Part shown: piece after piece, positions 2,134-17,127 of the stretch
Layout of the letters: each line of letters opens with the position of its first letter
How positions within the stretch are numbered: position 1 is the first letter of the stretch
Assembly: GCA_019116245.1 (NCBI GenBank)
Contig: DXCC01000011.1
Coordinates: forward strand, 1 to 39,414
DNA length: 39,414 nt
Source: Candidatus Tidjanibacter faecipullorum
GTDB lineage: Bacteria > Bacteroidota > Bacteroidia > Bacteroidales > Rikenellaceae
Reading direction: 5' to 3'
Position numbers and translations under genes: made by a program
Notes under the pieces: generated by a model
Databases searched by the model: none
Seen by the model: only the letters and a program-made list of their open reading frames with translations
Told to the model about the DNA's origin: nothing

Positions 2134-3003
2134 ATGAAACACTTGCTCCGCATACTCCGCCTGTCGGTCCTGCTGCTGCCGCTGCTGGCTGTAGGCTGCC
2201 GTGCCGAACGCACCGCAGACACCGTACTGACCGCCTCCATTCCGCCGGTCCGCTACCTGGTCTCCGCCATCACGTGCAACGATTTTCCCGTCGAGGTGCT
2301 GCTGCCGGCCGGATCCAACCCCGAGTCCTACTCCCCCACCGCCCAGCAGCTCGCCGGACTGGAGGGTTCCGAACTGATCTTTACGACCGGGCTGTTCGAC
2401 TTTGAACAGGAGTTGCTCGGCCGCACGACGGAAGGCATCCCCGCCGACCGCATCGTCAATCTCTCGACCGGCATCGACCTGCTGACAGGCCACCACCACG
2501 TCTCCGACGAGGCGACGCACGACGCCCACTACGATCCCCACATCTGGACTTCACCCGAACGGCTGAAGCGCATGGCAGCCACTGCCTACGACGCCATCCA
2601 CCGCCGGTTTCCCGATTCGGTGCGCTATCCGCAGGCCTACGAGGCGCTGATCGGTCGACTGGACGAGGCATCGCGTCAGATTGCCGACCGACTGGCGACA
2701 AGCGGCACCCGCACGTTCGTCATCTACCACCCGGCGCTGGGCTACTACGCCGCCGACTACGGATGCACGCAGCTTGCCCTGGAGGACGAGGGCAAGGAAC
2801 CCTCGGCCCAACACGTCGGCGACATCATCCGCCGGATGAAGGCCGAAGGCATCCACACCATTCTCTATCAACAGGAGTTCCCGGCGGCCGTCGTCGCAGC
2901 CGTGGCCGACGACACGCAGGCCACCGCCTCGCCCGTCAATCCGCTGGCCGAAGACATTGTCGGCGAACTGCTCCGCATCACCGATCTCATCACCCGCCCA
3001 TGA
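2134..3003 (+). CDS. znuA: Zinc/manganese ABC transporter substrate-binding lipoprotein (ZnuA-like)
   Basis: Periplasmic or membrane-anchored metal-binding component of a cluster 9-type ABC importer, 289 aa. It starts MKHLLRILRL and has a lipoprotein signal ending LLAVGC, so Cys-20 or so would be lipidated. The His-rich loop LLTGHHHVSDEATHDAH followed by DPHIW is the typical metal-handling region of ZnuA proteins, and the later YHPALGYYA and IHTILYQQEFP blocks fit the C-terminal lobe. The longer frame open from 2008 is rejected because the predicted promoter lies inside it. Its stop overlaps the ATG of the ATPase gene (ATGA), so both are co-translated. Zinc versus manganese cannot be settled from sequence, though the His-rich loop favours zinc. 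Confidence 0.88.
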   Translation: MKHLLRILRLSVLLLPLLAVGCRAERTADTVLTASIPPVRYLVSAITCNDFPVEVLLPAGSNPESYSPTAQQLAGLEGSELIFTTGLFDFEQELLGRTTEGIPADRIVNLSTGIDLLTGHHHVSDEATHDAHYDPHIWTSPERLKRMAATAYDAIHRRFPDSVRYPQAYEALIGRLDEASRQIADRLATSGTRTFVIYHPALGYYAADYGCTQLALEDEGKEPSAQHVGDIIRRMKAEGIHTILYQQEFPAAVVAAVADDTQATASPVNPLAEDIVGELLRITDLITRP

Positions 3004-3668
3004 ACAACACCCCGCTCGTCTCGCTCCGGCACGTCGGCGTCAGCTACGACGGCAAACCGGCTCTGACCGACATCGACCTGGAGATCCGCGCCAACGACTT
3101 CATCGGCATCGTAGGACCCAACGGCGGCGGCAAGACCACGCTGGTCAAGGCCATACTGGGACTGGTGCCCCACACCGGCGAGATCCGCCTGGACGACTCG
3201 CTGCGCACAGCCGCGGGCCGCATCGGCTACCTGCCCCAGCAGAACAACATCGACCCGGCATTTCCCATTCTCACGGAAGAGGTGATCGCCAGCGGACTCC
3301 AGTCGGGCCGCCGGCTGATGGGACGCATCCGTCCGGAAGAACGCCGCCGCATCGCCGAACTCATGGAGACGGCCGGCATAACCCGCTTGCGGGGCCAGGC
3401 TGTCGGCACGCTGTCGGGCGGCGAGATGCAGCGTGTGTTGCTGTGCCGGGCCCTGATCTCGGATCCCGCCCTGCTCATCCTCGACGAGCCTTCCAACTTT
3501 GTCGATCCGCGTTTTGAACACGAGCTGTACGAACTGCTCCGCCGCCTGAGCCGCCGCATGGCCATCGTGATGGTCTCCCACAACCGCAGCATCACGGCCG
3601 ACTATGCCGACCGGCTCTACTACGTGGACCACACGATCAGTCCCTATCCCCCCACGCCCCGGCCTTGA
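3000..3668 (+). CDS. znuC: Metal ABC transporter ATP-binding protein (ZnuC-like)
   Basis: Cytoplasmic ATPase that powers the ZnuA-type importer, 222 aa. Walker A is GPNGGGKTT (about residues 39-47), the Q-loop is LPQQNN, the signature is LSGGEMQR, Walker B is LLILDEP and the switch histidine is in MVSHN. The start at 3000 overlaps the znuA stop by 4 nt. No permease gene follows; the only candidate permease in the window is about 24 kb away on the opposite strand (27656-28498). A terminator shared with the convergent Crp/Fnr-type gene ends the operon. Confidence 0.9.
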   Translation: MNNTPLVSLRHVGVSYDGKPALTDIDLEIRANDFIGIVGPNGGGKTTLVKAILGLVPHTGEIRLDDSLRTAAGRIGYLPQQNNIDPAFPILTEEVIASGLQSGRRLMGRIRPEERRRIAELMETAGITRLRGQAVGTLSGGEMQRVLLCRALISDPALLILDEPSNFVDPRFEHELYELLRRLSRRMAIVMVSHNRSITADYADRLYYVDHTISPYPPTPRP

Positions 3669-3674
3669 CATACA

Positions 3675-3713
3675 AAAGGGCGGCTCTTAGAACCAAGAGC
3701 CGCCCTTTGTTTT
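3675..3713. terminator. Bidirectional terminator between znuC and the Crp/Fnr-type gene
   Basis: A 14-bp perfect stem (3675-3688 with 3695-3708), a 6-nt loop, and A-rich and T-rich flanks on the two sides, lying between convergent genes. Confidence 0.85.
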
Positions 3714-3729
3714 GGTCTTGCCGGAACGG

Positions 3730-4353
3730 TCACGCCAGCACATACCCCGCCTCCGTCTTGCGGAGCACCCCCTGGCGCACCAGTTGTGAAACGGTGCGCG
3801 AGAGCGACGGACGCGTCACCCCCAGAATAAAAGCGGTATCCTGCAGATTGGCCAGGATGCGGTTGTTGCGCAGGTAGCCGATCAACCGCGACGAAAGGCT
3901 CTGCAGGGCAAACTGCTCGAGTTTGCGGCTCAGGAAAAGACTGTGATCGGAAACGATGGCCAGAAAATTGTTCAGCACGGCCCGGTCCTGTTCCACGAGC
4001 GCCCGGACACACTCCCGACCGATCGTTACGACGCGGCAGGGTGAACTGGCCACGATCGACACGGGGAGCACCTTCTCCGTTCCGAACAGGAAGGCCGAAG
4101 CCAGCACATCGGGCGCCGACAGATACTCTAGGGTCACCTCGCGTCCCTCCTCGCTGGTCATGTGAATGTGCACGCTGCCCTCGCAGAGCAGATAGAGCGA
4201 GCGGCAGACGCTGTTCTGCATGGCAATGAAATCCCCTTTGCGATACGTATCGGCGCGGCCCGGAAAACGTTCCAGAACGGCATCGATCACCCCGCGGTCG
4301 CCCCCGCGGAAGAGAGGGGTATCATAGATCCGGTCATCCATCAACTGTTCCAT
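3730..4353 (-). CDS. Crp/Fnr-family transcriptional regulator
   Basis: A 207-aa DNA-binding regulator with an N-terminal cyclic-nucleotide-type beta-barrel (about 10-125, including GDFIAMQNSVCRSLYLLCEG), a dimerisation helix and a C-terminal winged helix (about 150-207, with FILGVTRPSLSRTVSQLV as the recognition region). There is no Fnr-like cluster of four cysteines, so an oxygen-sensing Fe-S cluster is unlikely; the ligand is unknown. I chose the ATG at 4353 over the TTG one codon earlier. The gene is divergent from the three-gene lipoprotein operon, and a palindromic site at 4372-4385 lies between them, so it probably controls that operon and possibly itself. Confidence 0.88.
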   Translation of the reverse strand: MEQLMDDRIYDTPLFRGGDRGVIDAVLERFPGRADTYRKGDFIAMQNSVCRSLYLLCEGSVHIHMTSEEGREVTLEYLSAPDVLASAFLFGTEKVLPVSIVASSPCRVVTIGRECVRALVEQDRAVLNNFLAIVSDHSLFLSRKLEQFALQSLSSRLIGYLRNNRILANLQDTAFILGVTRPSLSRTVSQLVRQGVLRKTEAGYVLA

Positions 4354-4371
4354 CAAAAAAAGTTATCGTTC

Positions 4372-4385
4372 GTAACACATGTTAC
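4372..4385. promoter_or_regulatory. Putative Crp/Fnr-type operator
   Basis: GTAACA-CA-TGTTAC is a perfect 6-2-6 inverted repeat centred at 4378.5. It lies 18 bp upstream of the regulator ATG (minus strand) and about 43 bp before the predicted transcription start of the divergent lipoprotein operon, the usual place for a class II activator. Binding by the neighbouring regulator is inferred. Confidence 0.6.
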
Positions 4386-4407
4386 GCACAACGGCTCGCT
4401 GCCGGTT

Positions 4408-4415
4408 TATCTTTG
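4408..4415 (+). promoter_or_regulatory. Putative promoter -7 box of the lipoprotein operon
   Basis: TATCTTTG matches TAnnTTTG perfectly. The -33 position (4385-4388) reads CGCA, not TTTG, consistent with dependence on an activator bound at 4372-4385. The leader to the ATG at 4506 is about 85 nt. Confidence 0.6.
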
Positions 4416-4505
4416 CGTCCGACAAGTGCGACCCGGCCCGGAAGTGAGCTACCTCCGTTCGGGTTGCGAATCCGACAGACAAATTTACATATAATGCCAA
4501 TAACG

Positions 4506-6362
4506 ATGAACAGATTCAAGTACGTTTTGCTGGGTTGCCTGCTTCTGCTGACCGCCTGCCAGAGCGATCCGCAGGAAGGCCCCATGCCTCCGTCCCCGGC
4601 GGGCGGCTTTGCCTTCAGCCTGCTCTGTGACGGTTTTGAAGAGGGCTCCACCCGTTCCGAGCAGCCCTCCCGGGCCGGTTACGACAAGGTGGCCTTCAGC
4701 GTGATCGATGCGGAAGGATTTGCCGTGGACGGTCTCAAGGGCGTGTACGATCCCGCCACATCCGTACTCCGGCTCGAAGGGCTCCGCGAGGGAGACTACC
4801 GGCTGCTGTTGCTCGGCATCCGGGGCGATGAACAGGCCGACGGCGTCACCATCCACACCCTGCGCACGATCGGCGACGAGTGGCTCTCCTTCCCGGAAGA
4901 TCTCCGCAGCCCGCTGCAGGCCGAATATTTCTATTCGCAGACCCCCTTCTCGGTGGTAGCCACGGCCGGAGCAGACGGCACGGAACTCACCGTAACGGGT
5001 GACCGGGAACCCGTCCAGCAGCGCATCATCGGCCGCACCGATTTTACCTTCGCCTACAACAATCCCTATGTGGAGACGGCCCTGCTGACGCAGCGCGTGA
5101 CGCTCACCGCGCCCCGCTTCCGCACGGGCATGACCGGCGACGGCGCATTTACCGGCACGGGCACCGGCAGCGATCTCACGCTCCCGCTCGACGGCACGAC
5201 CTCCTACCTCTTTCCGCCGACCGTAACGGACGAACCGCTGTGCGGCGAGGTGGAGGTAACTACGCGCGACTACCGCGGCTCGAACGTACGCCGCAGCTAC
5301 GGTTTCACGCTCCGGCAGGTAGCCCCCAACCGGATCGGCACCATACTCACCCGGGTCGAGCACCCCGACGACCGGTCGGCCGTGGCCTTTGTCACGGAAA
5401 CGGCCCTGGAGTCCATCGGCCTGGCCTATATCCTGCAGGACGACGAACCGCACACCGTCTACACCGACCGCACGCAGCGTTCGTTCAACACCGCCGCGCC
5501 GCTTCAGGTGACCACGACCAACGAGGGCAAGCTCCACGTGCGCTTCTACTCGCCCCGCGAGCTGACCGACGTGCTCATCCGGGCCCGGATTCCTTCGGTG
5601 AGCAACGAGTTCTTCGACATGGCCTACTTCGACCGCATCCCTGCCTTTGCCGACTTCTACGGCGAACTGCCGATTGCCCTGCGCCGTGTTTTTACGCGTA
5701 CGGCCTCGGGTGCCATTCTGGAAGCCGGACCGCTCGACGCGGAGACGCTGGCCACGGCCGAGTTCGAAATCCTGTCGGGCGACCCCTTCTGGGCCAAACT
5801 CCAGGCCATCCAGCACGGCTGGAACATCGGCTTTGCCCTCTACGGCGGCGACCCGGAGAAGCCCGACGGAGGCCCTACGGGCAACTGGATGGGCATCCGT
5901 CCCGTCCACTGCCGCGAAGCGGTGGCCCTGTTTCTCAACTTCACCTACATGATCGACATGCCGGAGCATGAACAGATCCTGCGCGACAACGTCGACCGCC
6001 TCTACGGAAACGGCGGCGTGAACGACAAGGTGACCGTCGAGGTGGTGCTGCAGCAGATGCGCCAGGCGCGCACGCTGAACGTCGGGCTGGTCTATTCCGG
6101 CAACGGAGTCGTCGGACTGGGCGGCGGCACGGTCTTCGGTGCCTACCAGCAGGCCTGGTTCCAGCACTACTTCAACACCTACTCCTGCGAGATCATGTTC
6201 CACGAGCTGGGCCACGTGATGGGCTACAACCACAGCAGTTCATTCACTTACGGCCCGTGGGCACAGGAGCTGATGAACCACTTCTACGTCGACCACATCC
6301 ACGAGATGCCGATCGACTCGCCCGACTACCTGAACAGTGCACAGAATCCGAACAAATACTGA
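4506..6362 (+). CDS. Fimbrillin-like surface lipoprotein with C-terminal metzincin zinc-protease motif
   Basis: A 618-aa protein of unknown exact function. The start MNRFKYVLLGCLLLLTAC gives a clear lipoprotein signal (Cys-18); an ATG 4 codons earlier is possible. Residues about 25-300 are beta-rich and resemble the paired beta-sandwich style of Bacteroidota fimbrillins (FimA/Mfa-like), an inference from pattern. Near the C-terminus is HELGHVMGYNH (566-576), a complete HExxHxxGxxH metzincin zinc site with three His ligands and the catalytic Glu, so it is probably an active surface protease. The protein ends about 40 residues later; the Met-turn could be the M in EMPIDSP or ELMNHF. It is the first gene of an operon with the next two, which start 11 and 40 bp after the preceding stops, and is divergent from a Crp/Fnr-type regulator. 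Confidence 0.75.
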   Translation: MNRFKYVLLGCLLLLTACQSDPQEGPMPPSPAGGFAFSLLCDGFEEGSTRSEQPSRAGYDKVAFSVIDAEGFAVDGLKGVYDPATSVLRLEGLREGDYRLLLLGIRGDEQADGVTIHTLRTIGDEWLSFPEDLRSPLQAEYFYSQTPFSVVATAGADGTELTVTGDREPVQQRIIGRTDFTFAYNNPYVETALLTQRVTLTAPRFRTGMTGDGAFTGTGTGSDLTLPLDGTTSYLFPPTVTDEPLCGEVEVTTRDYRGSNVRRSYGFTLRQVAPNRIGTILTRVEHPDDRSAVAFVTETALESIGLAYILQDDEPHTVYTDRTQRSFNTAAPLQVTTTNEGKLHVRFYSPRELTDVLIRARIPSVSNEFFDMAYFDRIPAFADFYGELPIALRRVFTRTASGAILEAGPLDAETLATAEFEILSGDPFWAKLQAIQHGWNIGFALYGGDPEKPDGGPTGNWMGIRPVHCREAVALFLNFTYMIDMPEHEQILRDNVDRLYGNGGVNDKVTVEVVLQQMRQARTLNVGLVYSGNGVVGLGGGTVFGAYQQAWFQHYFNTYSCEIMFHELGHVMGYNHSSSFTYGPWAQELMNHFYVDHIHEMPIDSPDYLNSAQNPNKY

Positions 6363-6372
6363 TAATGATACG

Positions 6373-8589
6373 ATGAAAACGAAACTGATGAGATACCTGA
6401 GCGCGCCGCTCGCCGGACTGGTGCTGCTGGCCGGATGCACCCGTCCGCACGACGAACTTCCCGCGTCCGGGACCACCCTCCGGGTGCGCCTCGCCCCCGA
6501 AACGCTCCGCGACCGGCAGCTGACCGCCGGTGAGGAGGAGATTGGCTCCGTGACGGCCTTCCGCTTCGAGGAGGGCACGTTGCAGGAGATTGTCGAGGGG
6601 CGCGCCGACGGCAACGGCAACCATGCCTTCCGGCTGACGGGACTCGCCGGCGAGCTGCGTTTCGTGGCCAACGCCGCTTCCATCGCACGGCCGGAGACCG
6701 GCTCGTCGCTGGAGGCCTTCGACGCCATTGTGGCGCCGACAACGGCCCTGGCAGGCGATGCACCGGCCATGACCGGCCGCATGACGCTTGAGAAACCGCT
6801 TCCGACGCTGGCCACGGTCGGCATGCGACGCAGCGTGGCCCGTATCGATCTGGAGGCCACCGACAGCGGCGTAGCCGTGCAGCGCATCACCATCCGGGGC
6901 GTGGCCGACCGCGGCTACCTGAACGTACGCCCCACGGCCGAGACGCCCGCCGCAGCCGAGCGGATCGACTTCACGAAAGCATACACCGACGGGCGGCTCA
7001 CGGCCGGTCGCGACCCGCTGCTCTACGTCTGCGAACAGACGGGGCCGGCCGCCACGGTCGAGGTGCTCGCCACCTTCGGCGGAGGCCTCCACCGGATGAC
7101 CGCCACGCTGCCCGCCACGCTGGAGCGCAACCATATCTACACGCTGCGCGTACACGGTTCGGGAGCCAATGCGGCGATCACCGTCACCGCGGACGGCTGG
7201 GAATCCGGCGAGCAGACCGAAACCTCGCCTGCCCTCAAGGGGCTGATCGACGCCTCCGCCTCGACCCTGGACGAAGGGGTGCGCATCAACGCGGCCGGCG
7301 ATACGGTGCGTGTCTCCTACCTCGGTGGCAATTTCCGGCTGGCGCTGCGCGCCGAGGCTGACGCCGAAGTGGCCGTCGAAGGCCATCTGCGCGGCGTAAC
7401 GGCCACGGTGACGCCTGCCACGCGTGCCCTGCAGCCTGCTGCTTCCGTGACCGTAACGGCCGACCGGCGCATGCCCAACGAAGCCACCGGCTACCTCTAC
7501 CTCGACATCCGCCGCGACGACACCCATTCGGGCCGCGTGGTGGTGCTCTTCGAGCCCAACCCCACCCGCATCACGGGACTGTCGCTGGATGAGGAGGGCG
7601 TCTGCGACTACGGCCGCTACATCGACGGCGAACTGGGACGCATCGAACTGCCCGCCGGCAAACAGGCAACACTCGAATTCGATGCCGGGGAGGATCCCTG
7701 GATGGCCCTGGCCGACGCCGGTTCGGGTACCCTGCGCCTGCTGGGCGGCTGGAAACCCAACGACCCCAAGGCCGACGGCCGCACGCAGGAGGGACGCCTC
7801 GTGATCGCCGATGCGGACGGTTCCCACGCCGAACGCTACACCGTGCGCCGAATCAATCAGGGCCTGCCGGTGGTTCGGATCGGCGGCCAGTGGTGGTGCA
7901 AATACAACCTCCGCGGGAATGTACGCAGTTTCGAGGATCAGATCACCGTTGCGAACGATCCGGCGGCCGACACCCGGCTGGCCGACTACCTGGCCTCCTG
8001 CTCCGACGAAGAGCTGCTACGCCTGCTGGGCGACCAGTATCAGGGCGGCAACCGGCAGGGACTGCCGCTGCGGCACAACGGCACGAGCTTCTACTACGAG
8101 GGCATGCAGGGTTCCGCCCAGCACTTCGGGGCGCTGGATCCGACCTACATGGCTCCCGACGGCTACGAAGTACCCGACTACGACGACTATGCCTTCTTCA
8201 GCGGCAGTGACAACTACAACATCGGAGGCGTGGGCAGCCGCAGCTACAACAACCGCCGCGGCGACCGGATCAACGTCCGCATCATCGAGCGCGACGCCAC
8301 GTTCCTCGGCCAGCCGTACGGCACCATCGCCTTCTACGAGTTCACCTCCGGGGAGGGATGCTGGGTGCTCGACGGACTGGGCCACCAGTGGAACACGACC
8401 GCCGGCAACATCAGCCGCATGATGATCCTGCTGGCCACCTCGGGCAACAGCACCTCCAGCTGGCTCATGGAAGGCTATGCCCAGAGCGAAAAGGCCAATC
8501 AGAACTGGCTCAAGTTCGTCTCCCAGAATGCGACCAAAACCCGTACCGTCCGGTGCATCAAAACGCCGGTAGAATACATCTACAAATAA
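6373..8589 (+). CDS. Surface lipoprotein, fimbrillin-like N-terminus and FISUMP/lectin-like C-terminus (paralogue 1)
   Basis: A 738-aa lipoprotein (MKTKLMRYLS, lipobox LLAGC). The N-terminal 300 or so residues have the beta-rich, Thr/Ala-rich look of a fimbrial subunit. A middle domain contains YIDGELGRIELPAGKQATLEF and GGWKPNDPKADGR, both repeated in similar form in the next gene. From about residue 500 a FISUMP-like domain starts at VVRIGGQWWCKYNLRGN and ends RTVRCIKTPVEYIYK; this domain has a C-type-lectin-like look and often sits at the end of adhesins. It starts 10 bp after the metzincin gene, so it is co-transcribed. A role as a tip or minor fimbrial adhesin is inferred. Upstream in-frame GTG codons are rejected because the lipoprotein signal fits the ATG at 6373. 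Confidence 0.7.
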   Translation: MKTKLMRYLSAPLAGLVLLAGCTRPHDELPASGTTLRVRLAPETLRDRQLTAGEEEIGSVTAFRFEEGTLQEIVEGRADGNGNHAFRLTGLAGELRFVANAASIARPETGSSLEAFDAIVAPTTALAGDAPAMTGRMTLEKPLPTLATVGMRRSVARIDLEATDSGVAVQRITIRGVADRGYLNVRPTAETPAAAERIDFTKAYTDGRLTAGRDPLLYVCEQTGPAATVEVLATFGGGLHRMTATLPATLERNHIYTLRVHGSGANAAITVTADGWESGEQTETSPALKGLIDASASTLDEGVRINAAGDTVRVSYLGGNFRLALRAEADAEVAVEGHLRGVTATVTPATRALQPAASVTVTADRRMPNEATGYLYLDIRRDDTHSGRVVVLFEPNPTRITGLSLDEEGVCDYGRYIDGELGRIELPAGKQATLEFDAGEDPWMALADAGSGTLRLLGGWKPNDPKADGRTQEGRLVIADADGSHAERYTVRRINQGLPVVRIGGQWWCKYNLRGNVRSFEDQITVANDPAADTRLADYLASCSDEELLRLLGDQYQGGNRQGLPLRHNGTSFYYEGMQGSAQHFGALDPTYMAPDGYEVPDYDDYAFFSGSDNYNIGGVGSRSYNNRRGDRINVRIIERDATFLGQPYGTIAFYEFTSGEGCWVLDGLGHQWNTTAGNISRMMILLATSGNSTSSWLMEGYAQSEKANQNWLKFVSQNATKTRTVRCIKTPVEYIYK

Positions 8590-8628
8590 CCGCGGAACTG
8601 TTTCCGAACCATGCAAGCACAACGAATC

Positions 8629-10920
8629 ATGAAAACGAAACGCATCATCCACACCATACTGGCGGCCGCAGCGGTCCTCGGCCTGGCCGCCTGCACCAAA
8701 CAGGAGCCCGCTCCCTCGCCCGCGCCGCCCAGCGATCCGACACCGGATGACCCGACCGCGACCGAGACGCTCGTCACGGTACGCATGGCCGACTACGAAA
8801 CCGCCGGTCTGACCGACGCCGAGACGATCGACTGGAACGACCTGCAGGCCTGTCTGTTCGAGGAGGGACACCTGCGGGCCGTATACAACGCCCCCACCAC
8901 GGACGGCGAGGCGCGCACTTTCCGGATTGCCTCCGAGGGGGGTACGCTCTATCTGCTGACCGAGGCCTCCCGGCTGGCCGACCTCGAGGGCCTCTGCGAG
9001 GCGGGCATCGCGGAAGAGGAGTGGCTGCGCCTGACGGCCGGTACGGAGAAGGGTCTTCCCGTACGGTTTGCCTCGGGTCAGGTGACGCTGACGGGCCAGG
9101 AGCGCGCCGAGGCAACGATGACCCGTGCCTGTGCCCGGCTTGACCTTCGGCTCCGCACCATCGGCAACGCTTCCGTCACGGAGCTGACGCTGGAAGGCGT
9201 AGCCCGGGAGACGCCGCTCTTCGGCCCGGCCGAAACGTCTGCCGTCGGTACCGTGGCGCTGCCCCTCGCTGCCCCCGTGACGGACGATACGGCCGGCGTG
9301 GCCTACCTCTATCCGCAGCAGACGGCCGGTGCCGTGCTCCGCGTCGAGGTGACCATCAGCGGCAAATCCTACACGCTGGAGAGCGAACTGCCCGCCCCCG
9401 TGCGCCGCAACTGCATCTATGTGGTCACCGTCAGCAAAGAGGAGGCCGATCAGGATGCCCTGCTGACCGTCGAGGCGTGGGAAAAGGGCGACGACACGGA
9501 CCTCTATCCCGACTGGGACGGCCGCATCGTCATCGATCCCGAACGTTCGGAACTGCCCCTCGGCACGATCGTCTCGGCCGACGGCACGCAGATCACCCTG
9601 CCCCACGGCCGGACCGACTTCCGCCTGGCCCTGGCCTGCAATGACGAACTGGAGGCAATGCCCGCCACCGGCAACCACCTGACCATCGAGGCGGAGGCCA
9701 CCGCCCGCAGCCTTGACGGCACCAACTGCTTCCGGATCCGCAAGCCCCTCTTCGCTCCCGGCATGGCAGCCGAGGAGAGCGTGCTGCAGTTCCGCCGCAA
9801 GGGACTGGCCAACCTCTATCCGGAGGATCGGATCACGGTATACCTGGCAGCCAATCCCGTCGGACTGGAGGGCGACATGACGTTTGACGCCACCACCTAC
9901 GCCTTCGATTTCGGCCGTTACATCGACAACGAGCTGGGACGCTTCACCGTACCGGCCGACAAACGGGTGACGGTGGAATTTGCGGCGGACGAGGATCCCT
10001 GGATCCGGATCAGCCCCCTCGATGGCAACGCCTCCGTATGCCGCGTGGTGGCCGGATGGAAGCCCAACGACCCCACGGCGAACGGACGCCGCCAGTCGGC
10101 CACGCTCGTGGTGAGCAACACGGACGGCTCGGACCGCGAGGAGTACACCGTCACCCGACGCAACTACGGACTGCCCGTGACGTGGTTCCACGGCGTGTGG
10201 TGGTGCAAATACAATGCCCGCGGCAATTCGCGCAACTTCGAGGATCAGATCCTCAGCTCGGCCGATCCCGCCGCCGAAGCGGGCCAGACGGTGCTCGACT
10301 ACCTGCGTGACTGCTCGCCCGAGGCATTCTATGACCTTTGGGGATGGGCCTATCAGGGAGACAGCGGCATCGGCATGCGCGTGGTGGACAACAACGGCAC
10401 GCTCGTCATGGACGGCTTCACGACCAGCGTATCGGCCCACATCAACAAACTGGCCCCCGACGCCCTCTCGCCCGACGGCTACGAACTGCCCTCGATGGAG
10501 GAGTTCAACCGCATGTTCGACGCCACGGACTACGTGTGGATCATGTGGAGCGGCTCCCACGCCCTGCGCAACCCCTGGGAAGGGCACAGCACCGTGAAGC
10601 GCGAGCAGCGCCGCCGCAACGACATCCGCGTGGGATCGGTCCAGACCACGGACCTGCTCTACACGGCCATGTGGAGCCCCGACTTTCCGGAGTACGAGGC
10701 GGTGACGTGGTACGGCCCCGGCGCCCAGTGGGACGCCGCCGGTATCAAACACGCCGGCCACTACAACAACATGCTCTTTGCCGTCTGGTCGCCCGAGGGA
10801 TCGGGATGGTACATGGCAGGCAACATGTCGGCGCTCTATCTCCAGAAAAACGGAGCCGGCAACAAGGATACCCGCATCCTCCGATTCAAAAAGTCGCCGG
10901 TAGAGTACATCTACGAATAA
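8629..10920 (+). CDS. Surface lipoprotein, fimbrillin-like N-terminus and FISUMP/lectin-like C-terminus (paralogue 2)
   Basis: A 763-aa lipoprotein (MKTKRIIHTILAAAA, lipobox GLAAC at about residues 20-24), built like the previous gene: beta-rich N-terminus, the shared module YIDNELGRFTVPADKRVTVEF ... AGWKPNDPTANGRR, and a C-terminal FISUMP-like domain from about residue 517 (WFHGVWWCKYNARGN) to ILRFKKSPVEYIYE. The shared MKTK start, module order and PVEYIY ending show that the two arose by duplication; the lectin-like part differs most (loop lengths, no final Cys in the R-F-K motif where the paralogue has RCIK). It is the third gene of the Crp/Fnr-flanked operon. An imperfect GC hairpin at 10940-10978 follows without a T-tract. 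Confidence 0.7.
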   Translation: MKTKRIIHTILAAAAVLGLAACTKQEPAPSPAPPSDPTPDDPTATETLVTVRMADYETAGLTDAETIDWNDLQACLFEEGHLRAVYNAPTTDGEARTFRIASEGGTLYLLTEASRLADLEGLCEAGIAEEEWLRLTAGTEKGLPVRFASGQVTLTGQERAEATMTRACARLDLRLRTIGNASVTELTLEGVARETPLFGPAETSAVGTVALPLAAPVTDDTAGVAYLYPQQTAGAVLRVEVTISGKSYTLESELPAPVRRNCIYVVTVSKEEADQDALLTVEAWEKGDDTDLYPDWDGRIVIDPERSELPLGTIVSADGTQITLPHGRTDFRLALACNDELEAMPATGNHLTIEAEATARSLDGTNCFRIRKPLFAPGMAAEESVLQFRRKGLANLYPEDRITVYLAANPVGLEGDMTFDATTYAFDFGRYIDNELGRFTVPADKRVTVEFAADEDPWIRISPLDGNASVCRVVAGWKPNDPTANGRRQSATLVVSNTDGSDREEYTVTRRNYGLPVTWFHGVWWCKYNARGNSRNFEDQILSSADPAAEAGQTVLDYLRDCSPEAFYDLWGWAYQGDSGIGMRVVDNNGTLVMDGFTTSVSAHINKLAPDALSPDGYELPSMEEFNRMFDATDYVWIMWSGSHALRNPWEGHSTVKREQRRRNDIRVGSVQTTDLLYTAMWSPDFPEYEAVTWYGPGAQWDAAGIKHAGHYNNMLFAVWSPEGSGWYMAGNMSALYLQKNGAGNKDTRILRFKKSPVEYIYE

Positions 10921-11020
10921 CCGGCCGCCGCATCCCGTCACGGGCTCCGTTTCCGCATCGGTCGGAGGCGGAGCCCGTAGTCTTGGGCCCCCCGGTCTGC
11001 CAGCCACACGCCGGACAGAA

Positions 11021-11458
11021 GTGCGGTTGCCGGTCTACGCCGACAAGCCCGACAATGCGAAAATCAAACTCTACGCGCTGGACCGCATGGTGAAGCTCCG
11101 CGTGACCGAAGATCGCTTTACGCCGCCCGAGGAACTCGACCCAGCCGGCTACCTGGCCGGGGCCTTCGGCGTGGCGGTCTACGACGACATACGTCCCTGC
11201 ACGATCCGGGTCCGGGTCTCGGACGACGGCGTCAAGTACCTCCGCACGCTGCCCCTCCACGCTTCGCAGCAGGAGGTCGAGACGCATGACGACTATGCCA
11301 TCTTCGAATTTCACGTAGCACCGACGCCGGAGTTTTGCCAGGCCATGTTAAACTGCCACGGCAACTTTGAGGTGCTATCGCCGGGCAATGTTCGGGAAGA
11401 GACGCGGCGCATCATTGATGGGCTCCATGTTTTGTACTGCCGTCCGACAAATGATTAA
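11021..11458 (+). pseudogene. WYL-domain regulator, N-terminally truncated remnant
   Basis: The frame (145 aa from a GTG at 11021) matches only the end of a WYL-domain regulator: VYADKPDNAKIKLYALDRM is the second half of the WYL domain, followed by FTPPEELDPAGYLAGAFGV and the WCX part (PLHASQQEVE, then VLSPGNVREETRRIIDGL). The N-terminal winged helix and the W-Y-L core are missing, and only 100 bp separate it from the preceding gene, too little to hold them. The frame stays open a short way upstream but with no WYL-like sequence. It is therefore probably a relic left by a deletion or insertion at about 10990-11030. WYL proteins often regulate defence loci, which fits the accessory genes that follow. 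Its last codons overlap one possible start of the next gene. Confidence 0.7.
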
Positions 11459-11477
11459 AAAAGAAAATCGAACGAAG

Positions 11478-11951
11478 ATGATGACAGAAAAAAAAGACAA
11501 ACAGACACATGAGCGCCAATGGGAACTTTTTGCGGAGGCAGTGCCGCTCATTTGGCACCAACGTGAACGGATTCTTACCGATCCGCAGCTCTTCGGGGCC
11601 CGCACGCCGATGCGTATCCGCATGGCCTATGTTTCGATGAAGGATTCGGGACCTTATCCGTTGGGCGTGGTGGTCCGGGCGTGGACCGAGCACGCAGAAA
11701 ACTACATGCGTCTATGTCCGAAATGCGGCGGACGGATGTTGATCTACTCCTTCTCGGGGTCACCGTTGAGCGGCCGCAGCAGCCATTCGGCCACCTGCAC
11801 CGCATGCGGCTATCAACAACGCCACGTCGACGAAGGCAGTTTCGGACGCCTTGCTTCACCGATCATGCGTATTGCCAGCGAGTATCGGGATCTGCCGGAA
11901 GACGATGCGCTGTCACTCGAAGAGGCTGTCAACCTTCTAAAACGTCTTTAA
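11478..11951 (+). CDS. Small zinc-ribbon protein of unknown function
   Basis: A 157-aa protein from an ATG at 11478; starts at 11451 (overlapping the WYL remnant) and 11481 are also possible. The leader is A-rich. A zinc ribbon is formed by CPKC (C80/C83) and CTAC (C107/C110), with 23 residues between the pairs including SGSPLSGRSSHSA. The N-terminal half is charged (EKKDKQTHERQWELFAEA) and the C-terminus is a helix rich in acidic residues. I do not recognise a family. Base composition is intermediate between the GC-rich chromosome and the AT-rich nuclease that follows, suggesting it belongs to the acquired segment. Confidence 0.65.
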   Translation: MMTEKKDKQTHERQWELFAEAVPLIWHQRERILTDPQLFGARTPMRIRMAYVSMKDSGPYPLGVVVRAWTEHAENYMRLCPKCGGRMLIYSFSGSPLSGRSSHSATCTACGYQQRHVDEGSFGRLASPIMRIASEYRDLPEDDALSLEEAVNLLKRL

Positions 11952-11963
11952 GCCAGTAGCGTA

Positions 11964-11994
11964 TTTGTTTTCTCCTATTTTACCTTTAACTTTA
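11964..11994 (+). promoter_or_regulatory. Putative promoter of the nuclease-MBL operon
   Basis: TTTG at 11964-11967, an exact 19-bp spacer, and TAACTTTA at 11987-11994 (7 of 8 matches to TAnnTTTG). The predicted start near 12001 precedes the ATG at 12020 by about 19 nt. Confidence 0.6.
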
Positions 11995-12019
11995 TATATA
12001 ACCTTAAAACTAAAGCTTT

Positions 12020-12949
12020 ATGGATGCACGAACATTAAAAAAACAACTTGGATTTCGTCTTTTCCCTTCTAAGCTGGATATTAATCTGGACGAAAACAAG
12101 GCAATACTCTACATCGGCATGGAAGCCTCATCCGTATGCGATAACATGCAAGAAGACTCATCAGCTTTTGAAGGGTGGATCTTTTGTATTTATGCGCCCA
12201 TGCAAGATAAAATAAAACAGGTTGAACTTTCATGGCAGATTCCAAACGAAAAAGATAAAAACACTCATTATAATCGATTTTTGTATCGGGTAATCAAAAT
12301 GCAGCAGCATTTCAACTGGTTTTCGGTTGCTTCGGATAATCTTCAAGAGCTTGCAACATTCCGAAACAGATACAAAGATGTCAAACTGGTTTTGAACCAG
12401 CCGAGGATTGCCGAGAAGCAAACAGACTTCAAGGAAAAAACAGAGGCCTTCTTCGAAAGGGCCTTCATGGACGAAAAACAGTTTTACAAGGGGATTCAGT
12501 TCGACTCATTCAATCATCAATTGCCTGTCGGTCTTTTTCTGAACAGCGTATCGCAGAATAGTTCGATTTTTCCAGGGAATAAAGGCGCTATTGACCTGTG
12601 GGGAATCAGAAAGGATGAATTTTGGATTTTCGAGCTCAAATTCAACAACAGCAAAGTCGGAATTTTATCCGAAATTCTGTTTTATCTGTGGATCATGGAG
12701 GACTTGTTCTTCACGCGGAAAATAGCTTATGATCCATCAGGAAAGAGTAATACGATTCGGGATTTGAATCGGGTTTATGATTTGGCTCAAACCGGGATTT
12801 CCAAACTTCACGGGGTTTTATTAACGGATAAATTACATCCGTATATTGATAATAGGGTCATTGATTTTATCAATAAGACAAATCAGGAATCGCGCATACT
12901 CCTGTCGGTTCAAATGTACAGGCCTCGCATTACGGTAAAATTGCTATGA
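12020..12949 (+). CDS. PD-(D/E)XK nuclease-like protein, AT-rich and probably acquired
   Basis: A 309-aa protein. The sequence GAIDLWGIRKDEFWIFELKF carries D192, then E205-L-K207, the spacing D-x12-E-x-K of a PD-(D/E)XK nuclease core, preceded by a Gly-rich turn and followed by a helix (ILSEILFYLWIM) as expected for the fold. Residues 1-170 are a mixed alpha/beta region with no recognisable domain. The family is unknown to me; similar stand-alone nucleases occur in restriction or anti-phage loci. The gene is clearly richer in A and T than neighbours on both sides, with different codon use, so recent transfer is likely. Its stop overlaps the ATG of the next gene (ATGA), so the two are translationally coupled and probably functionally linked. 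Confidence 0.65.
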   Translation: MDARTLKKQLGFRLFPSKLDINLDENKAILYIGMEASSVCDNMQEDSSAFEGWIFCIYAPMQDKIKQVELSWQIPNEKDKNTHYNRFLYRVIKMQQHFNWFSVASDNLQELATFRNRYKDVKLVLNQPRIAEKQTDFKEKTEAFFERAFMDEKQFYKGIQFDSFNHQLPVGLFLNSVSQNSSIFPGNKGAIDLWGIRKDEFWIFELKFNNSKVGILSEILFYLWIMEDLFFTRKIAYDPSGKSNTIRDLNRVYDLAQTGISKLHGVLLTDKLHPYIDNRVIDFINKTNQESRILLSVQMYRPRITVKLL

Positions 12950-13758
12950 CCATCACCATCCACCGCGGGACACACGAAATCGGCGGCAGTTGTGTTGAAA
13001 TACGGACCCGGCAGGCAAAAATTCTGCTCGATCTGGGTCTGCCGCTCGATTTCGACGCCCGGTCCCAGGAGCAGCAGAAGCAAATCCGCCGCGAGGCCCT
13101 CGAATGGGCGCAGGATGCCGATGCCATCTTCATCAGCCACTACCATGCCGACCACCACGGTCTGCTGCCCGATACGCACCGGGATGTGGCCATCTACGCT
13201 ACGGCCGGGACGGCGGCCATGATGCACGTCACCGAGGTAATCCATGGCCGCGGCGATGCCGACTATCTGCGCCATATCAGCGTCCTATTCAAGGACGCTG
13301 ACGACCGGAAGTTCGAGCCGGTAATCGTGGGCGATATTTGTATCACGCCCTACACGGTCGACCTGCTGAACTTTCTGAAATATCTGGAGGAACATCCGCT
13401 CGACCACCGGCCGACCCTGTCGGTGCTGATAAACTGCGGCTTTCTGGAGTATCAGCAGAACGAGATCGCCATCCGCATGCTGCGGCTTTTCAGCGAGCGG
13501 AACGGCTATCCGTTCGGATCGGTGCTGATGATCGGCAGCGGCGAAGCCATTCTCGACTCCCCCTTCCGTCCGCTCGTGCGGCGCCAGATCCGCCGCCTGG
13601 CCCGGTCGATCGAACGCCGCCGCTACCGTACGCTGCACACCACCATGCCGCTGCCCCGCAAGGTGTTTCTGGCCGCCTCCACCCAATACTGGCTTCGGTA
13701 CGGCCAGCGCTTCGGCACCTCCCGCCGGCAGATGGAGACCATGCAGATCGAAGCCTGA
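12946..13758 (+). CDS. Chimeric gene: metallo-beta-lactamase N-terminus joined to flavodoxin-family C-terminus
   Basis: A 270-aa open frame made of two unrelated halves. Residues 1-139 are an RNase J-type MBL domain: THEIGGSCVEI, LLDLGLPL, and the metal motif SHYHADHH (H65, H67, D69, H70), ending in ITPYTVD. In that family the sequence should go on as VDHS with later metal ligands; here it switches at about residue 140 (nt 13362) to TLSVLINCGFLEYQQNEIA, GSVLMIGSGEAIL and a tail with PLPRKVFLAASTQYWLR, which is the C-terminal half of NAD(P)H-dependent flavodoxin-like oxidoreductases. The later MBL metal ligands and the flavin-binding N-terminus are both missing, so neither activity is expected to be complete. 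It overlaps the nuclease gene by 4 bp. It could be a fusion pseudogene that stays open by chance. Confidence 0.7.
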   Translation: MTITIHRGTHEIGGSCVEIRTRQAKILLDLGLPLDFDARSQEQQKQIRREALEWAQDADAIFISHYHADHHGLLPDTHRDVAIYATAGTAAMMHVTEVIHGRGDADYLRHISVLFKDADDRKFEPVIVGDICITPYTVDLLNFLKYLEEHPLDHRPTLSVLINCGFLEYQQNEIAIRMLRLFSERNGYPFGSVLMIGSGEAILDSPFRPLVRRQIRRLARSIERRRYRTLHTTMPLPRKVFLAASTQYWLRYGQRFGTSRRQMETMQIEA

Positions 13759-13826
13759 TCGCTCCGCCGCCGACAAAAAGAAAGCGGCCGATCACTCCTC
13801 CGCAACCGCCCGCCAATACCCGACAC

Positions 13827-13857
13827 AAAAAAAGGACAGCCCCTAAAGGCTGTCCTT
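13827..13857 (-). terminator. Terminator of tRNA-Gly(GCC)
   Basis: A 10-bp perfect stem (13832-13841 with 13848-13857), a 6-nt loop, followed on the minus strand by a run of seven T. Confidence 0.85.
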
Positions 13858-13869
13858 CCATTTGTTCAG

Positions 13870-13942
13870 AGCGGAAAACGAGACTCGAACTCGCGACCCC
13901 AACCTTGGCAAGGTTGTGCTCTACCAACTGAGCTATTTCCGC
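13870..13942 (-). tRNA. tRNA-Gly, anticodon GCC
   Basis: The minus strand folds as a cloverleaf: acceptor stem GCGGAAA/TTTCCGC, D-arm with GTTGGTA, anticodon stem CAACC/GGTTG around the loop TTGCCAA (anticodon GCC), and T-arm with GTTCGAGTC. CCA is not encoded (CTG follows the discriminator T). Its 3' end faces the accessory segment at 11-13.8 kb, a common arrangement for integrated islands. Confidence 0.95.
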
Positions 13943-13974
13943 ATTCGGTGGGACATCTGTCCCGTTTACGAGTG

Positions 13975-14005
13975 CAAAGATAGACAAAATTCCTCTCCCT
14001 CCAAA
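13975..14005 (-). promoter_or_regulatory. Promoter of tRNA-Gly(GCC)
   Basis: On the minus strand TTTG (14002-14005), an exact 19-bp spacer and TATCTTTG (13975-13982): a full consensus Bacteroidota promoter, starting about 25 bp before the mature tRNA. Confidence 0.8.
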
Positions 14006-14117
14006 CGGCAGTTCGCTTTTTCGCGATTTTTTTCGTCTTTTCCCGCATTTTTCCCGGAAAATCCCCACCAGAAGCCCCCAGTAGCCCCCGTGACGGCGGG
14101 ACTATCGCCTTTTTCCC

Positions 14118-14147
14118 TATCTTTGGCCTGCCGGAACAGTCCGGCAG
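14118..14147 (+). promoter_or_regulatory. Promoter and 5' leader hairpin of the TonB-dependent receptor gene
   Basis: TATCTTTG at 14118-14125 is a -7 match. Directly behind it lies a 7-bp inverted repeat, CTGCCGG (14128-14134) and CCGGCAG (14141-14147), with a 6-nt loop. It covers the predicted start site, so it could be an operator or an mRNA 5' hairpin. I see no B12 box or other known riboswitch in 13943-14173. Confidence 0.45.
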
Positions 14148-14173
14148 ATCACTTTTAAAATCTTTTTCTATTT

Positions 14174-16150
14174 ATGAAACGGACTTCTAAAAGTGGGATT
14201 ATGGGTCATTTTACCCGGTGGACTCGCAAGCCATATGGCGCGTTCGCTTCACTCGGCAAGGTAGTGAAGATCGGCGTGCTGTCGCTCACGATGTCGATCG
14301 TCACGCACAGCCCAAAAAGCGTAGCCGCTCAGCCGGATTCGCTGGAGGTGGCCCGTGTGGTCGAACTCGAGGCGCTGAACGTGACCGCCGAACGACTGAA
14401 TCCCACACGGGGAGTTACCACTCCCACGGAAGTGTACAGCCGCGACACGCTCTCCGTCGCGCCGCTGCAAACCATCGAAAGCGTACTGCGCATCAACCCC
14501 GCCGTCGATCTTCGCGAACGCGGCGCCAAGGGCATGCAGGCCGACATATCGGTCCGCGGCGGTACGTACGACCAAACCCTCATCCTGCTCAACGGCATCG
14601 ATTTCACCGATGCCCGCACCGGCCATCAGAGCCACAGCCTGCCTGTCGATCTGGACATCATCGGCGAGATTGACTTCATTACCGGACTGACCGGCATCGG
14701 CGCCTTCTCCGGAGCGCTCAACTTCATCACCACCCCCCTGCGCCCCAACTACCTGCGCGCGGAACTCTCGGGAGGAGCCTACGGATACCTCTACTCCAAC
14801 ATTTCGGGTGCCTTCACACGCAACGGACTTTCGGTGCTGGCCGCCGGTTCGATCCGACGCTCGGACGGCTACACCCACAACACCGACTTCTTCAATTCCA
14901 ACCTCTACTCGCGCATCACCTACCAGTCCGCTTCGGTGGGGCTGATCGATGCGCAGGTCGGATACCAGTGGCGCGACTTCGGAGCCAACAGCTTCTACTC
15001 GACCGCTTTTCCCGACCAGTTTGAACATACCGAAACCCAGCTCGCCTCGATCCGCTGGAGCCGCAACATCGGCATGTTCACCCTGAACGCCAATGTCAGC
15101 TACCGCAAGAATTTCGACCGCTACGAACTCTACCGGGCCGGCAAGGGCGCACCGGACGGCTGGACCCCCAACTACCACACGACCGACAACGCGGGCGCCG
15201 AAATCAGCGTCGACTACCGCTGGCGGTGGGGCACTTCGTCCATCGGAGCCGACTACAAGTACAATCACCTATACAGCAACGTCCTGGGCGAACTCATGGC
15301 GGCTCCCATACCCGTTCCGGGAGCGGATGCCGTCTACACCCGCGAAAAGGGACGCCACATCATCAACGGATGGCTCAGCCACCGCATGCGGCTGGGATCG
15401 ACTTCGCTGGCCGGATCGTTCAACCTCTCGCACAGCGAATACGGCACCTTCCCGTCGGGCAGTCTGGCCGTCAGCCAGCAGCTGCTGGAGGGATGGGACG
15501 TGGAAGCCGACCTGACCCGGTCGATGCGCCTGCCCACCTATACGGATCTCTACTACACGACCGCCACCCACATCGGAAACCCCAACCTGAAGGCGGAACA
15601 GGCCACAACCTACCAGTTGGGCACCCACTACCGCTACGGGCGTTTCCAGATCGGCGCCAGCGGCTTTTTCCGCCAGGGATCGAACATGATCGACTGGCGA
15701 CTGGTCGAGACACCCGAAGGCCAGAAGTGGCAATCGACCCAGCTCACCCGGCTCAACACCTACGGGGTGGAGCTGCTGGCCACCTATCGCGGCCGGCGCA
15801 TCCTGCGTCACGTGACCCTCAGTTACGGCTGGCTCAACTCCAACAAGGACACGCACGACATCACCAAATACGCACTCGACTTTATGAACCACAAGGTGGC
15901 GCTCCAGTGCGGCGTGAACATCTGGCGCGGTCTGTCGGCCGAGGTGACCGCCTCGTGGTACGACCGCAAGGATACGGCCGACACCATCTACAAGCCCTAC
16001 TGGCTGCTGGATGCTCGATTGAGCTGGACCCAGGGCGCCTTCACCTTCTATGTCGAGGCGACCAACCTCTGCAATACGGTCTACTATGACTTCGTGGGAG
16101 TCATCCAGCCGCCCCGCTGGATCAGCGGCGGCGTAGTGATGACCCTCTGA
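14174..16150 (+). CDS. TonB-dependent outer-membrane receptor
   Basis: A 658-aa ligand-gated outer-membrane transporter. A plug domain starts near residue 60 (LNVTAERLNPTRGVTTPTEV; ESVLRINPAVDLRERGAKGMQADISVRGGTYDQTLILLNG), followed by a beta-barrel with alternating aromatic strands to the last strand ending WISGGVVMTL. The N-terminus is unusual: before the hydrophobic signal (IGVLSLTMSIVTHS) stands a 30-residue basic stretch with HFTRWTRKPYGAFASLGK. From memory this long leader type recurs in Bacteroidota receptors, including cobalamin-type ones, but the ligand cannot be told from sequence. There is no SusD partner, so an oligosaccharide role is less likely. It has its own promoter and ends at a strong hairpin shared with the convergent PAP2 gene. 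Confidence 0.88.
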   Translation: MKRTSKSGIMGHFTRWTRKPYGAFASLGKVVKIGVLSLTMSIVTHSPKSVAAQPDSLEVARVVELEALNVTAERLNPTRGVTTPTEVYSRDTLSVAPLQTIESVLRINPAVDLRERGAKGMQADISVRGGTYDQTLILLNGIDFTDARTGHQSHSLPVDLDIIGEIDFITGLTGIGAFSGALNFITTPLRPNYLRAELSGGAYGYLYSNISGAFTRNGLSVLAAGSIRRSDGYTHNTDFFNSNLYSRITYQSASVGLIDAQVGYQWRDFGANSFYSTAFPDQFEHTETQLASIRWSRNIGMFTLNANVSYRKNFDRYELYRAGKGAPDGWTPNYHTTDNAGAEISVDYRWRWGTSSIGADYKYNHLYSNVLGELMAAPIPVPGADAVYTREKGRHIINGWLSHRMRLGSTSLAGSFNLSHSEYGTFPSGSLAVSQQLLEGWDVEADLTRSMRLPTYTDLYYTTATHIGNPNLKAEQATTYQLGTHYRYGRFQIGASGFFRQGSNMIDWRLVETPEGQKWQSTQLTRLNTYGVELLATYRGRRILRHVTLSYGWLNSNKDTHDITKYALDFMNHKVALQCGVNIWRGLSAEVTASWYDRKDTADTIYKPYWLLDARLSWTQGAFTFYVEATNLCNTVYYDFVGVIQPPRWISGGVVMTL

Positions 16151-16178
16151 CGCCCTACCCCTTCTCGCCGAATGCAGC

Positions 16179-16207
16179 GGGGCGTGCAACCGTCGGTTGC
16201 ACGCCCC
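16179..16207. terminator. Hairpin terminator between the TonB receptor and PAP2 genes
   Basis: A 13-bp perfect stem (16179-16191 with 16195-16207) and a 3-nt loop between convergent genes. There is no T-run on either side, so it may act with Rho or mainly protect mRNA ends. Confidence 0.65.
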
Positions 16208-16230
16208 GTATGGTTTCCGGTCCGCGGCGG

Positions 16231-17127
16231 TCAGAAAACGCAGACGAAGCCGGCCCCGTAGTAATCGACACCAATGGCCGGCGTGAAGGTCATGGCCGAA
16301 GTGCGCCGACGGGACTCGGAACGCCGGGTGCCGTAGATCCAGCGGTCGAAAACGGGCCACAGCAGATAGGCCGCCTCGACGCTGGCAATGGCGATGCCCG
16401 CACCGGCCGCCACGTCGCTCAGCCAGTGGCGCTTGTTGAACATGCGCATCACACCGGTGGTAGTGGCCAAGGCATAGCCCGCGATGCCGATCCAGGGCGA
16501 AACGTCCTTATACTCCCGGAAGAGCAGGTGGGCGCCCGTGAAGGCCATGGCCGTATGCCCCGACGGGAAGGAATTCCACGCCGAGCCGTCGGGCCGCAAC
16601 ACGGGGACGGTCGCCTTGATCGTATTGACTACGATGCCCATAATCAGATACGAGGTGGCGGCGATGATCGTTCGGTCAAGGAGGTTGTGCTGCCGGTTGT
16701 CCACCCCCGCAATCGACAGTCCCATATAGGCGGCCAGCGGGGCATACTGAATGTAGTCGTCGAACCGCGCCTTGCCCGGAAAGACCTCCCGCACATATTC
16801 GTCGATTCCGTGATTGACCTCCTGCAGCAGCGGATTGCCCTGTGCGACGATACCGTAGGTGATGAGGCCGGCCGGAATGATGAACCGTGCCCCGGTCGAA
16901 TGCCAGAAATCGCAGCGCCGCTCCGGCCGTGCGTCACGCTCCGCTGCCGCCAGGGCATGGCGGGCAAACACCTGCCCTTCGACGCGGGGGGCCAGACCGG
17001 CCACCGGAACGGAGGACGAGGTCCAGACCGCCGGACGCTCGATGGCATAGGAAAGCAACTGCCCGTGCAGCGGCAGGGCTGCGGCCAGGACACCACACAA
17101 CAGGCAAAGGGAGCGCAACAGTTTCAT
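16231..17127 (-). CDS. PAP2-family membrane phosphatase
   Basis: A 298-aa protein with an N-terminal signal segment (LLRSLCLLCGVLAAALPLHG). The three phosphatase motifs are present: KATVPVLRP (KxxxxxxRP), FPSGH (PSGH) and RMFNKRHWLSD (the SRxxxxxHxxxD motif, here starting with R after M). The surrounding hydrophobic helices fit a membrane PAP2 fold acting on lipid phosphates such as undecaprenyl pyrophosphate or phosphatidate; the substrate is not determined. ATG at 17127 is preferred to the TTG two codons upstream. It is convergent with the TonB receptor and divergent from the amber-split small gene. Confidence 0.85.
   Translation of the reverse strand: MKLLRSLCLLCGVLAAALPLHGQLLSYAIERPAVWTSSSVPVAGLAPRVEGQVFARHALAAAERDARPERRCDFWHSTGARFIIPAGLITYGIVAQGNPLLQEVNHGIDEYVREVFPGKARFDDYIQYAPLAAYMGLSIAGVDNRQHNLLDRTIIAATSYLIMGIVVNTIKATVPVLRPDGSAWNSFPSGHTAMAFTGAHLLFREYKDVSPWIGIAGYALATTTGVMRMFNKRHWLSDVAAGAGIAIASVEAAYLLWPVFDRWIYGTRRSESRRRTSAMTFTPAIGVDYYGAGFVCVF

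Follow-up and report, generated by a model that had tools for sequence, protein, structure and literature searches.

A stretch of 39,414 nucleotides from Candidatus Tidjanibacter faecipullorum (contig DXCC01000011.1 of assembly GCA_019116245.1; "the window" below) contains, at positions 12,020–13,758 of its forward strand, two overlapping genes that lie beside the 3′ end of a tRNA-Gly(GCC) gene. The pair is best read, with some reservation, as a mobile two-nuclease module in decay, the intact form of which combines a varied PD-(D/E)XK-like gene with a constant β-CASP metallo-β-lactamase (MBL) gene and would defend the cell against phages or plasmids. An earlier note, made from the letters of the DNA, had pointed to an undescribed two-gene system of nucleic-acid processing damaged in its second gene; that finding is confirmed and is broader than claimed, the window holding the remnant of a recurrent two-nuclease module.

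Recurrence of the pair and exchange of its first gene

When the alignment of the first gene (window-type nuclease, or nucA type) was scanned over genome contigs, 38 loci were found in Bacteroidota, Clostridia and others, which form 29 groups at 90% DNA identity; an MBL gene is present in 22 of the loci and in 16 of the groups. It directly follows the nuclease gene in 17 loci, is separated from it by an extra gene with a D..ExK motif in four, and is naturally fused to it in one (L097, in which positions 150–2,321 encode a single MBL–nuclease protein of 723 residues with a TTG start; L and G numbers denote loci and genomes, respectively). In 13 of the 38 loci, a PD-(D/E)XK protein of ~330 residues takes the place of the MBL, either fused or adjacent, and in the eight of these that were tested, its Pfam family, in the same place, is REase-ARP. 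L075 has another gene behind the nuclease, and L086 and L093 stop at the contig end; a downstream gene is thus found in all 36 readable loci, and in 35 of them it is an MBL or REase-ARP gene.

The same coupling is seen from the side of the MBL. The MBL start lies on the contig in 52 loci. Forty of these have an open reading frame (ORF) with a D..ExK motif within 200 nt upstream, and in 37 the end of this ORF and the start of the MBL are −20 to +8 nt apart, with an overlap of exactly 4 nt in 14; of 123 control ORFs of 200–400 residues, 14 carry the motif. The window, G130 (a different MBL), the group of G191, G643, G068, G934, and G918 (partial), and G310 and G315 (remote, partial) were dropped before the 52 were counted, and the 37 leave out G658 (+33) and G936 (+189), both doubtful, as well as G885 (+99). 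Chance neighbourhood is rejected because the coupling recurs from both the nuclease and the MBL sides. Homologues of the first protein do, as the earlier note had proposed, recurrently neighbour an MBL gene; the length of about 350 residues given there for the intact MBL does not hold for this family, the intact members of which have ~400–450 residues.

Several variations on this arrangement were observed. Among near-identical clostridial loci, an additional D..ExK gene separates nuclease and MBL in L081, L082, L085, and L087 and is missing from L083, L089, and L092; the start of the L097 fusion seems to be shared, as TTGA, with the end of a reading frame upstream. The window-type nuclease is fused or adjacent to REase-ARP in L070, L072, L073, L074, L077, L080, L088, L090, and L095, and, by eye, L070 and L074 continue with HsdS-like genes, L072 and L073 with WYL-like ones. 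REase-ARP as the usual partner of the MBL was rejected for the first 30 genomes tested, its three matches lying elsewhere in them. L020/L049 (G029) show the reversed order, with a nuclease-like partner of 295 residues downstream of the MBL beside tRNA-Gly, and in L036, L037, and L038 (G021, G019, and G005) an ORF of 114–147 residues, not a nuclease, overlaps the MBL start by 4 nt. A small gene lies 3′ of the intact MBL in window-family loci (L045, 9,093–9,704; L046; L047; L048; L050); the G043 copy (L167, 10,638–11,201) matches WG repeats, and the other copies are alike by eye. L104, L109, and L141 have a metallophosphatase-like gene in this place instead.

The first genes swap as cassettes between near-identical flanks. 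DNA identity between the window and L045 (G043) is 94.9% over 11,034–11,932 and 93.6% over 12,957–13,363, with nothing between at E ≤ 1e-5, so that unrelated nuclease genes occupy the same place in the two loci. Likewise, L016 and L017 have MBLs with 93% identity and nucleases that do not align. The opposite relation is found among the nucleases of the window, L017, and L033, which are 45–54% identical mutually, with the MBL of L033 only 31–35% identical to the other two (the L033 nuclease frame is broken at its start). Compared by hhalign, the nucA type and the other partners are aligned at the D..ExK core (E 1.5e-4, probability 51%).

The two proteins of the module

The first gene of the window (12,020–12,949, + strand) is intact and encodes 309 residues. 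The nuclease core D-x12-E-x-K that the earlier note had picked out in it (D192, E205, and K207) is invariant in 25 of 25 aligned homologues. An AlphaFold2 model made with 24 natural homologues (predicted local distance difference test, pLDDT, 87.6; predicted template modelling score, pTM, 0.89) contains a helix at residues 141–151, strands at 163–169, 190–197 (with D192), and 200–207 (with E205 and K207), a helix at 214–230, and a strand at 262–269. This is an α-β-β-β-α-β core with the D in the second strand and E-x-K in the third, the order of elements that defines PD-(D/E)XK, and the protein is accordingly modelled as a PD-(D/E)XK-like fold. Searches of Pfam, NCBIfam, and PADLOC found nothing that matches it, nor did those of PDB sequences, made either with the single sequence or with a profile (0 at E ≤ 5). 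The single sequence finds only itself in 100 related genomes and has no match among phage records, plasmid records, or viral contigs; one of 25 nuclease homologues gives a weak Cas4 match (0.0078).

The intact relatives of the second gene are predicted to be β-CASP MBLs with an RNase J-like fold and the full set of motifs. Residues H65, H67, D69, H70, H140, D162, H371, H375, and H397, which make up the MBL and β-CASP motifs, are invariant in 22 of 22 MBLs, and RMMBL is above its cut-off in five of five intact MBLs scanned. Among PDB sequences, the family profile finds EF2904 at 1.8e-38 and RNase J at 4e-32. For the MBL part of a model of the L097 fusion (pLDDT 88.7; pTM 0.60, which is insufficient for assessing the interface), Foldseek has a best E of 4.5e-23, the matches being EF2904, RNase J, CPSF73, and Cas14. 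The distribution of the MBL is patchy: it is found in 25 of 268 family genomes at E ≤ 0.001 (one of these a different MBL), and in 31 of 393 order genomes and 8 of 395 phylum genomes at E ≤ 1e-20. Ten plasmid records carry it; nothing among 50,697 phage records matched it, and a search with the MBL alignment matched six viral contigs. A phage gene was therefore rejected as an explanation, the nuclease being unmatched in phage records, plasmid records, and viral contigs alike. Decayed copies also exist elsewhere, such as L018, which lacks the first gene and has a stop in its MBL, and L140, which has two stops.

The damaged copy and its tRNA-side island

The second ORF of the window (12,946–13,758, + strand, 270 residues) overlaps the first through ATGA. 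It is a chimera, and its reading as a plain MBL of 270 residues was rejected. Residues 1–139 belong to an RNase J-type β-CASP MBL and are 91–95% identical (126–132 of 139) to the intact 424-residue MBLs of a sister genus; they correspond to the N-terminal third of the gene (12,946–13,363), the DNA of which is 93.6–94.8% identical to L045/L046 up to 13,363, where homology to the intact MBL loci ends. Profile matches of the ORF are Lactamase_B_2 (2e-05, under the Pfam cut-off) and aCPSF1 (9.8e-11, under the NCBIfam cut-off). The ORF from residue 138 on is similar to the protein of L005 (57% over 132 residues), an FMN-reductase/flavodoxin-like protein that itself matches FMN_red at 1.4e-4, under the cut-off. 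It is the C-terminal part of such a protein that is fused in frame at 13,364–13,758, and the joint falls on two residues common to both halves. The origin of this tail was not found in the other 22 genomes of the genus. The RNase J-type identity assigned by the earlier note thus holds for the first 139 residues and not for the last ~130, and the damage it had noticed can be specified as truncation followed by in-frame fusion. The window MBL keeps HxHxDH and has lost every ligand from His140 on (A2 numbering) together with the β-CASP motifs, leaving its active site incomplete. An active MBL is not expected from this copy, and the module as such would be dead here, because the catalytic residues from His140 on are replaced by the FMN-reductase-like tail.

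The nuclease gene is AT-rich, with a guanine–cytosine (GC) content of 0.396 against 0.608 in the MBL part and 0.613 in the window, as the earlier note had described; the first gene has the lower GC content in all seven pairs measured. That note also gave the gene a full promoter of its own. A Bacteroidota-type promoter-like site (TTTG-N19-TAACTTT) does lie upstream at 11,964–11,993 on the + strand, and a sigma-70 scan found no promoter before the gene. The Bacteroidota promoter consensus is TTTG-N19-21-TAnnTTTG, and, searched minus its last G, it has three matches in the window against 0.24 expected by chance. Two further genes precede on the same strand, again in agreement with the earlier description. 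At 11,021–11,458 stands the C-terminal remnant of a WYL-type regulator gene (WCX domain, Pfam E 8.6e-11), which is truncated: DNA homology begins at 11,034, and the ORFs of its relatives (329–497 residues) extend further upstream. It is followed at 11,478–11,951 by a zinc-ribbon-like gene, with weak zinc-ribbon matches that are all under the Pfam cut-off, which is shorter here than the versions of 251–254 residues in L046, L047, and L048.

On the other side, a GC-rich inverted repeat at 13,832–13,857, terminator-like on both strands, separates the module from tRNA-Gly(GCC) at 13,869–13,942 on the − strand, the 3′ end of which faces the module. Insertion beside the tRNA is supported at this site by comparison with the sister genome G007, which aligns to window positions 2,932–10,926 (75%) and 13,868–16,467 (84%) and not between them; collinearity resumes at 13,868, one base before the tRNA 3′ end at 13,869. 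The variable island is thereby placed at 10,927–13,867, from a lipoprotein gene cluster to the tRNA-Gly 3′ end, and its 2.9 kb in the window have as their counterpart in G007 2.4 kb of different DNA. Beside it, at 6,337–10,920, are two long lipoprotein-like ORFs (750 and 769 residues), the layout of which resembles G007. The window was also searched for an att-like site repeating the tRNA 3′ end in direct orientation; this was rejected, nothing being found besides the two tRNA-Gly genes themselves. Across the family, a convergent tRNA 3′ end lies ~90–330 nt from the module 3′ end in 5 of 39 MBL loci, the window included (tRNA-Gly in the window, L049, L054, and L056; tRNA-Ser in L153). No tRNA 3′ end lies at such a distance in 20 further nucA-type loci, and the control stretches hold four tRNA genes in 17 regions; judged by these raw counts, a tRNA 3′ end within 350 nt in 5 of 39 loci is more than expected.

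Role of the module and relation to known systems

Defence is the likeliest role of the module, which, from its sequence features, is probably directed against invaders. The context was sampled as the 120 of 262 non-adjacent ORFs nearest the MBL in 20 loci, compared with 120 random ORFs of control stretches. WYL is found in 5 of 120 MBL neighbours and in at most 1 of 120 controls; ResIII (4), GmrSD_N (2), SIR2_2 (2), and MkoA (2) also occur among the neighbours and are not among the 25 control families listed. Plasmid copies adjoin WYL, DUF262, or restriction–modification genes, and some neighbourhoods contain restriction–modification genes as well. This neighbour content is moderate evidence for a defence role; together with the patchy distribution it gives indirect support to the candidate defence role suggested by the earlier note. 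A known defence system was rejected, as neither the window pair nor the relatives tested matched PADLOC strongly: the window genes have no match in PADLOC-DB 2023, five intact MBLs and four partners match only LmuA (0.0061) and NsnC (8.8e-4), in one MBL each, and among 30 partners seven families are matched, each by a single partner (best NERD, 3.4e-5). The pair was also not found in the literature searched, the scope of which excludes subscription papers and some preprints, and the description of the system as undescribed is retained.

Several observations weigh against the reading of the pair as a defensive two-nuclease module. Fifteen of the 52 MBL loci have no abutting motif ORF; the partner lies downstream of the MBL in G029, G857, and G975, and none is visible in some loci, such as G870. 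Across 30 mutually dissimilar first or neighbouring genes (A8 alignment), D and E are invariant and K is kept in at least 90%, an agreement that is partly by choice, since these partners were hand-picked, partly for the motif. Foldseek of the nuclease model against the PDB has a best E of 0.014 and nothing at E ≤ 0.001. Its top matches include VC1899, a Hachiman chain, AF1548, Can2, Card1, R.BspD6I, and McrBC, which we take to be mostly restriction-like nucleases, and they also include non-nucleases and unrelated proteins, among them SbcCD and crotonases; the BFVD search gives the same picture, again with none at E ≤ 0.001. As these structural matches are weak, the fold call leans on the order of elements and the conserved residues. 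MBL neighbours match 270 PADLOC families and controls 217, a small difference, and the controls also match defence-like families (Gabija-like helicases, NucC, and Csm3). Finally, no methyltransferase or other self/non-self device was seen in the pair, for which no systematic scan was made.

The intact module is an operon, often ATGA-coupled, and is preceded by WYL and zinc-ribbon genes in the family loci nearest the window. As a defence system, it might work through a varied PD-(D/E)XK protein that would recognise and then cut or nick the nucleic acid of an invader, followed by the constant β-CASP enzyme, which would degrade the resulting ends or invader RNA; this division of labour is a guess. 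Translational coupling would fix the proportion of the two proteins, the WYL protein may repress the operon until infection, and novelty of the first protein would be under selection, hence the exchange of cassettes. In this genome, the nuclease may be inert or act alone. Tentatively, and with the balance tipped slightly against it, the module could represent a new class of conflict system, in which a constant β-CASP MBL, as a shared degrading unit, is joined by open-ended, exchangeable PD-(D/E)XK partners as specificity units, shuffled as cassettes, controlled by WYL, and moving between tRNA-side islands and plasmids, with one partner type occurring with either MBL or REase-ARP.

Other explanations have to be weighed against the decaying defence module. 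The nuclease may still be in use here, by itself or together with a different partner, MBL loss having been tolerated or selected; its open 309-residue frame, promoter-like site, and catalytic triad agree with this, as does the pairing of the same type with REase-ARP elsewhere. We consider it somewhat unlikely, given the further gene behind the nuclease at every readable nucA-type locus and a recent loss of the MBL in the window, the flanks being still 91–95% like intact copies; because the loss is recent, the frame could be open without being used. A unit that processes nucleic acids for the upkeep of a mobile element or for repair, rather than for defence, is unlikely. The enzymes related to RNase J and CPSF73 have processing functions and are known above all for their action on RNA, and plasmid records and tRNA-side sites would suit such a unit, yet the huge diversity and swapping of one component beside a constant other fit a conflict with a changing opponent better, and the WYL, ResIII, GmrSD_N, and SIR2_2 neighbours also speak against it. 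A toxin–antitoxin or addiction pair, in which one enzyme is harmful to the cell, the second holds it in check or clears its products, and the variety of first genes reflects toxin diversification, would account for two small coupled genes in a mobile context (including the ten plasmid records) and for frequent decay (the window, L018, and L140). It is decidedly unlikely, however, as both partners retain full sets of catalytic residues and neither resembles a known antitoxin, the window keeps an open nuclease frame next to a broken MBL, and in L018 and L020 the MBL is not immediately preceded by a nuclease. That the chimera is an assembly artefact and the strain has an intact MBL is very improbable: the genome is a draft of 32 contigs and the joint lies on two shared residues, as misjoins can, but the genome holds one MBL match (residues 1–140) with no further piece found, and the island as a whole is cleanly bounded.

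If the favoured reading as a defence module is true, accessory defence-like operons would gain an enzyme of the RNase J/CPSF73 type, and loci that are naturally near-isogenic except for their first gene would allow one to ask directly which component sets specificity. Exchangeable specificity subunits served likewise for type I restriction.

Among known systems, Cas14 of type VII CRISPR is also a β-CASP nuclease, and its likeness to the module MBL is at the level of the fold; the pair includes no Cas7 or other CRISPR gene. PMC12799240 describes pairs of an MBL-superfamily nuclease and a protease in Hachiman, AVAST, Lamassu, and DRT, exchanged between systems, of which the HamM type sets a trypsin-like protease beside an MBL nuclease of the DNA-uptake type. 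These likewise pair an MBL nuclease gene with another, exchangeable defence enzyme; compared with those pairs, the module has a β-CASP MBL downstream of a PD-(D/E)XK-like gene, and no protease was seen in it, with no scan aimed at that family. REase-ARP (PF22558) and PDDEXK_13 are PD-(D/E)XK proteins that replace the MBL, fused or adjacent, as partner of the window-type nuclease; they are unrelated to the MBL, and the window nuclease itself matches no Pfam family. The closest likeness of the intact second gene is to RNase J, CPSF73, and EF2904 (2az4), with which it shares the fold and the metal-binding and HxSGHA..PIH motifs, whereas the module MBL is shorter (~400–450 residues), is accessory, occurring in 31 of the 393 genomes of the order, and has PD-(D/E)XK-like genes coupled to it.
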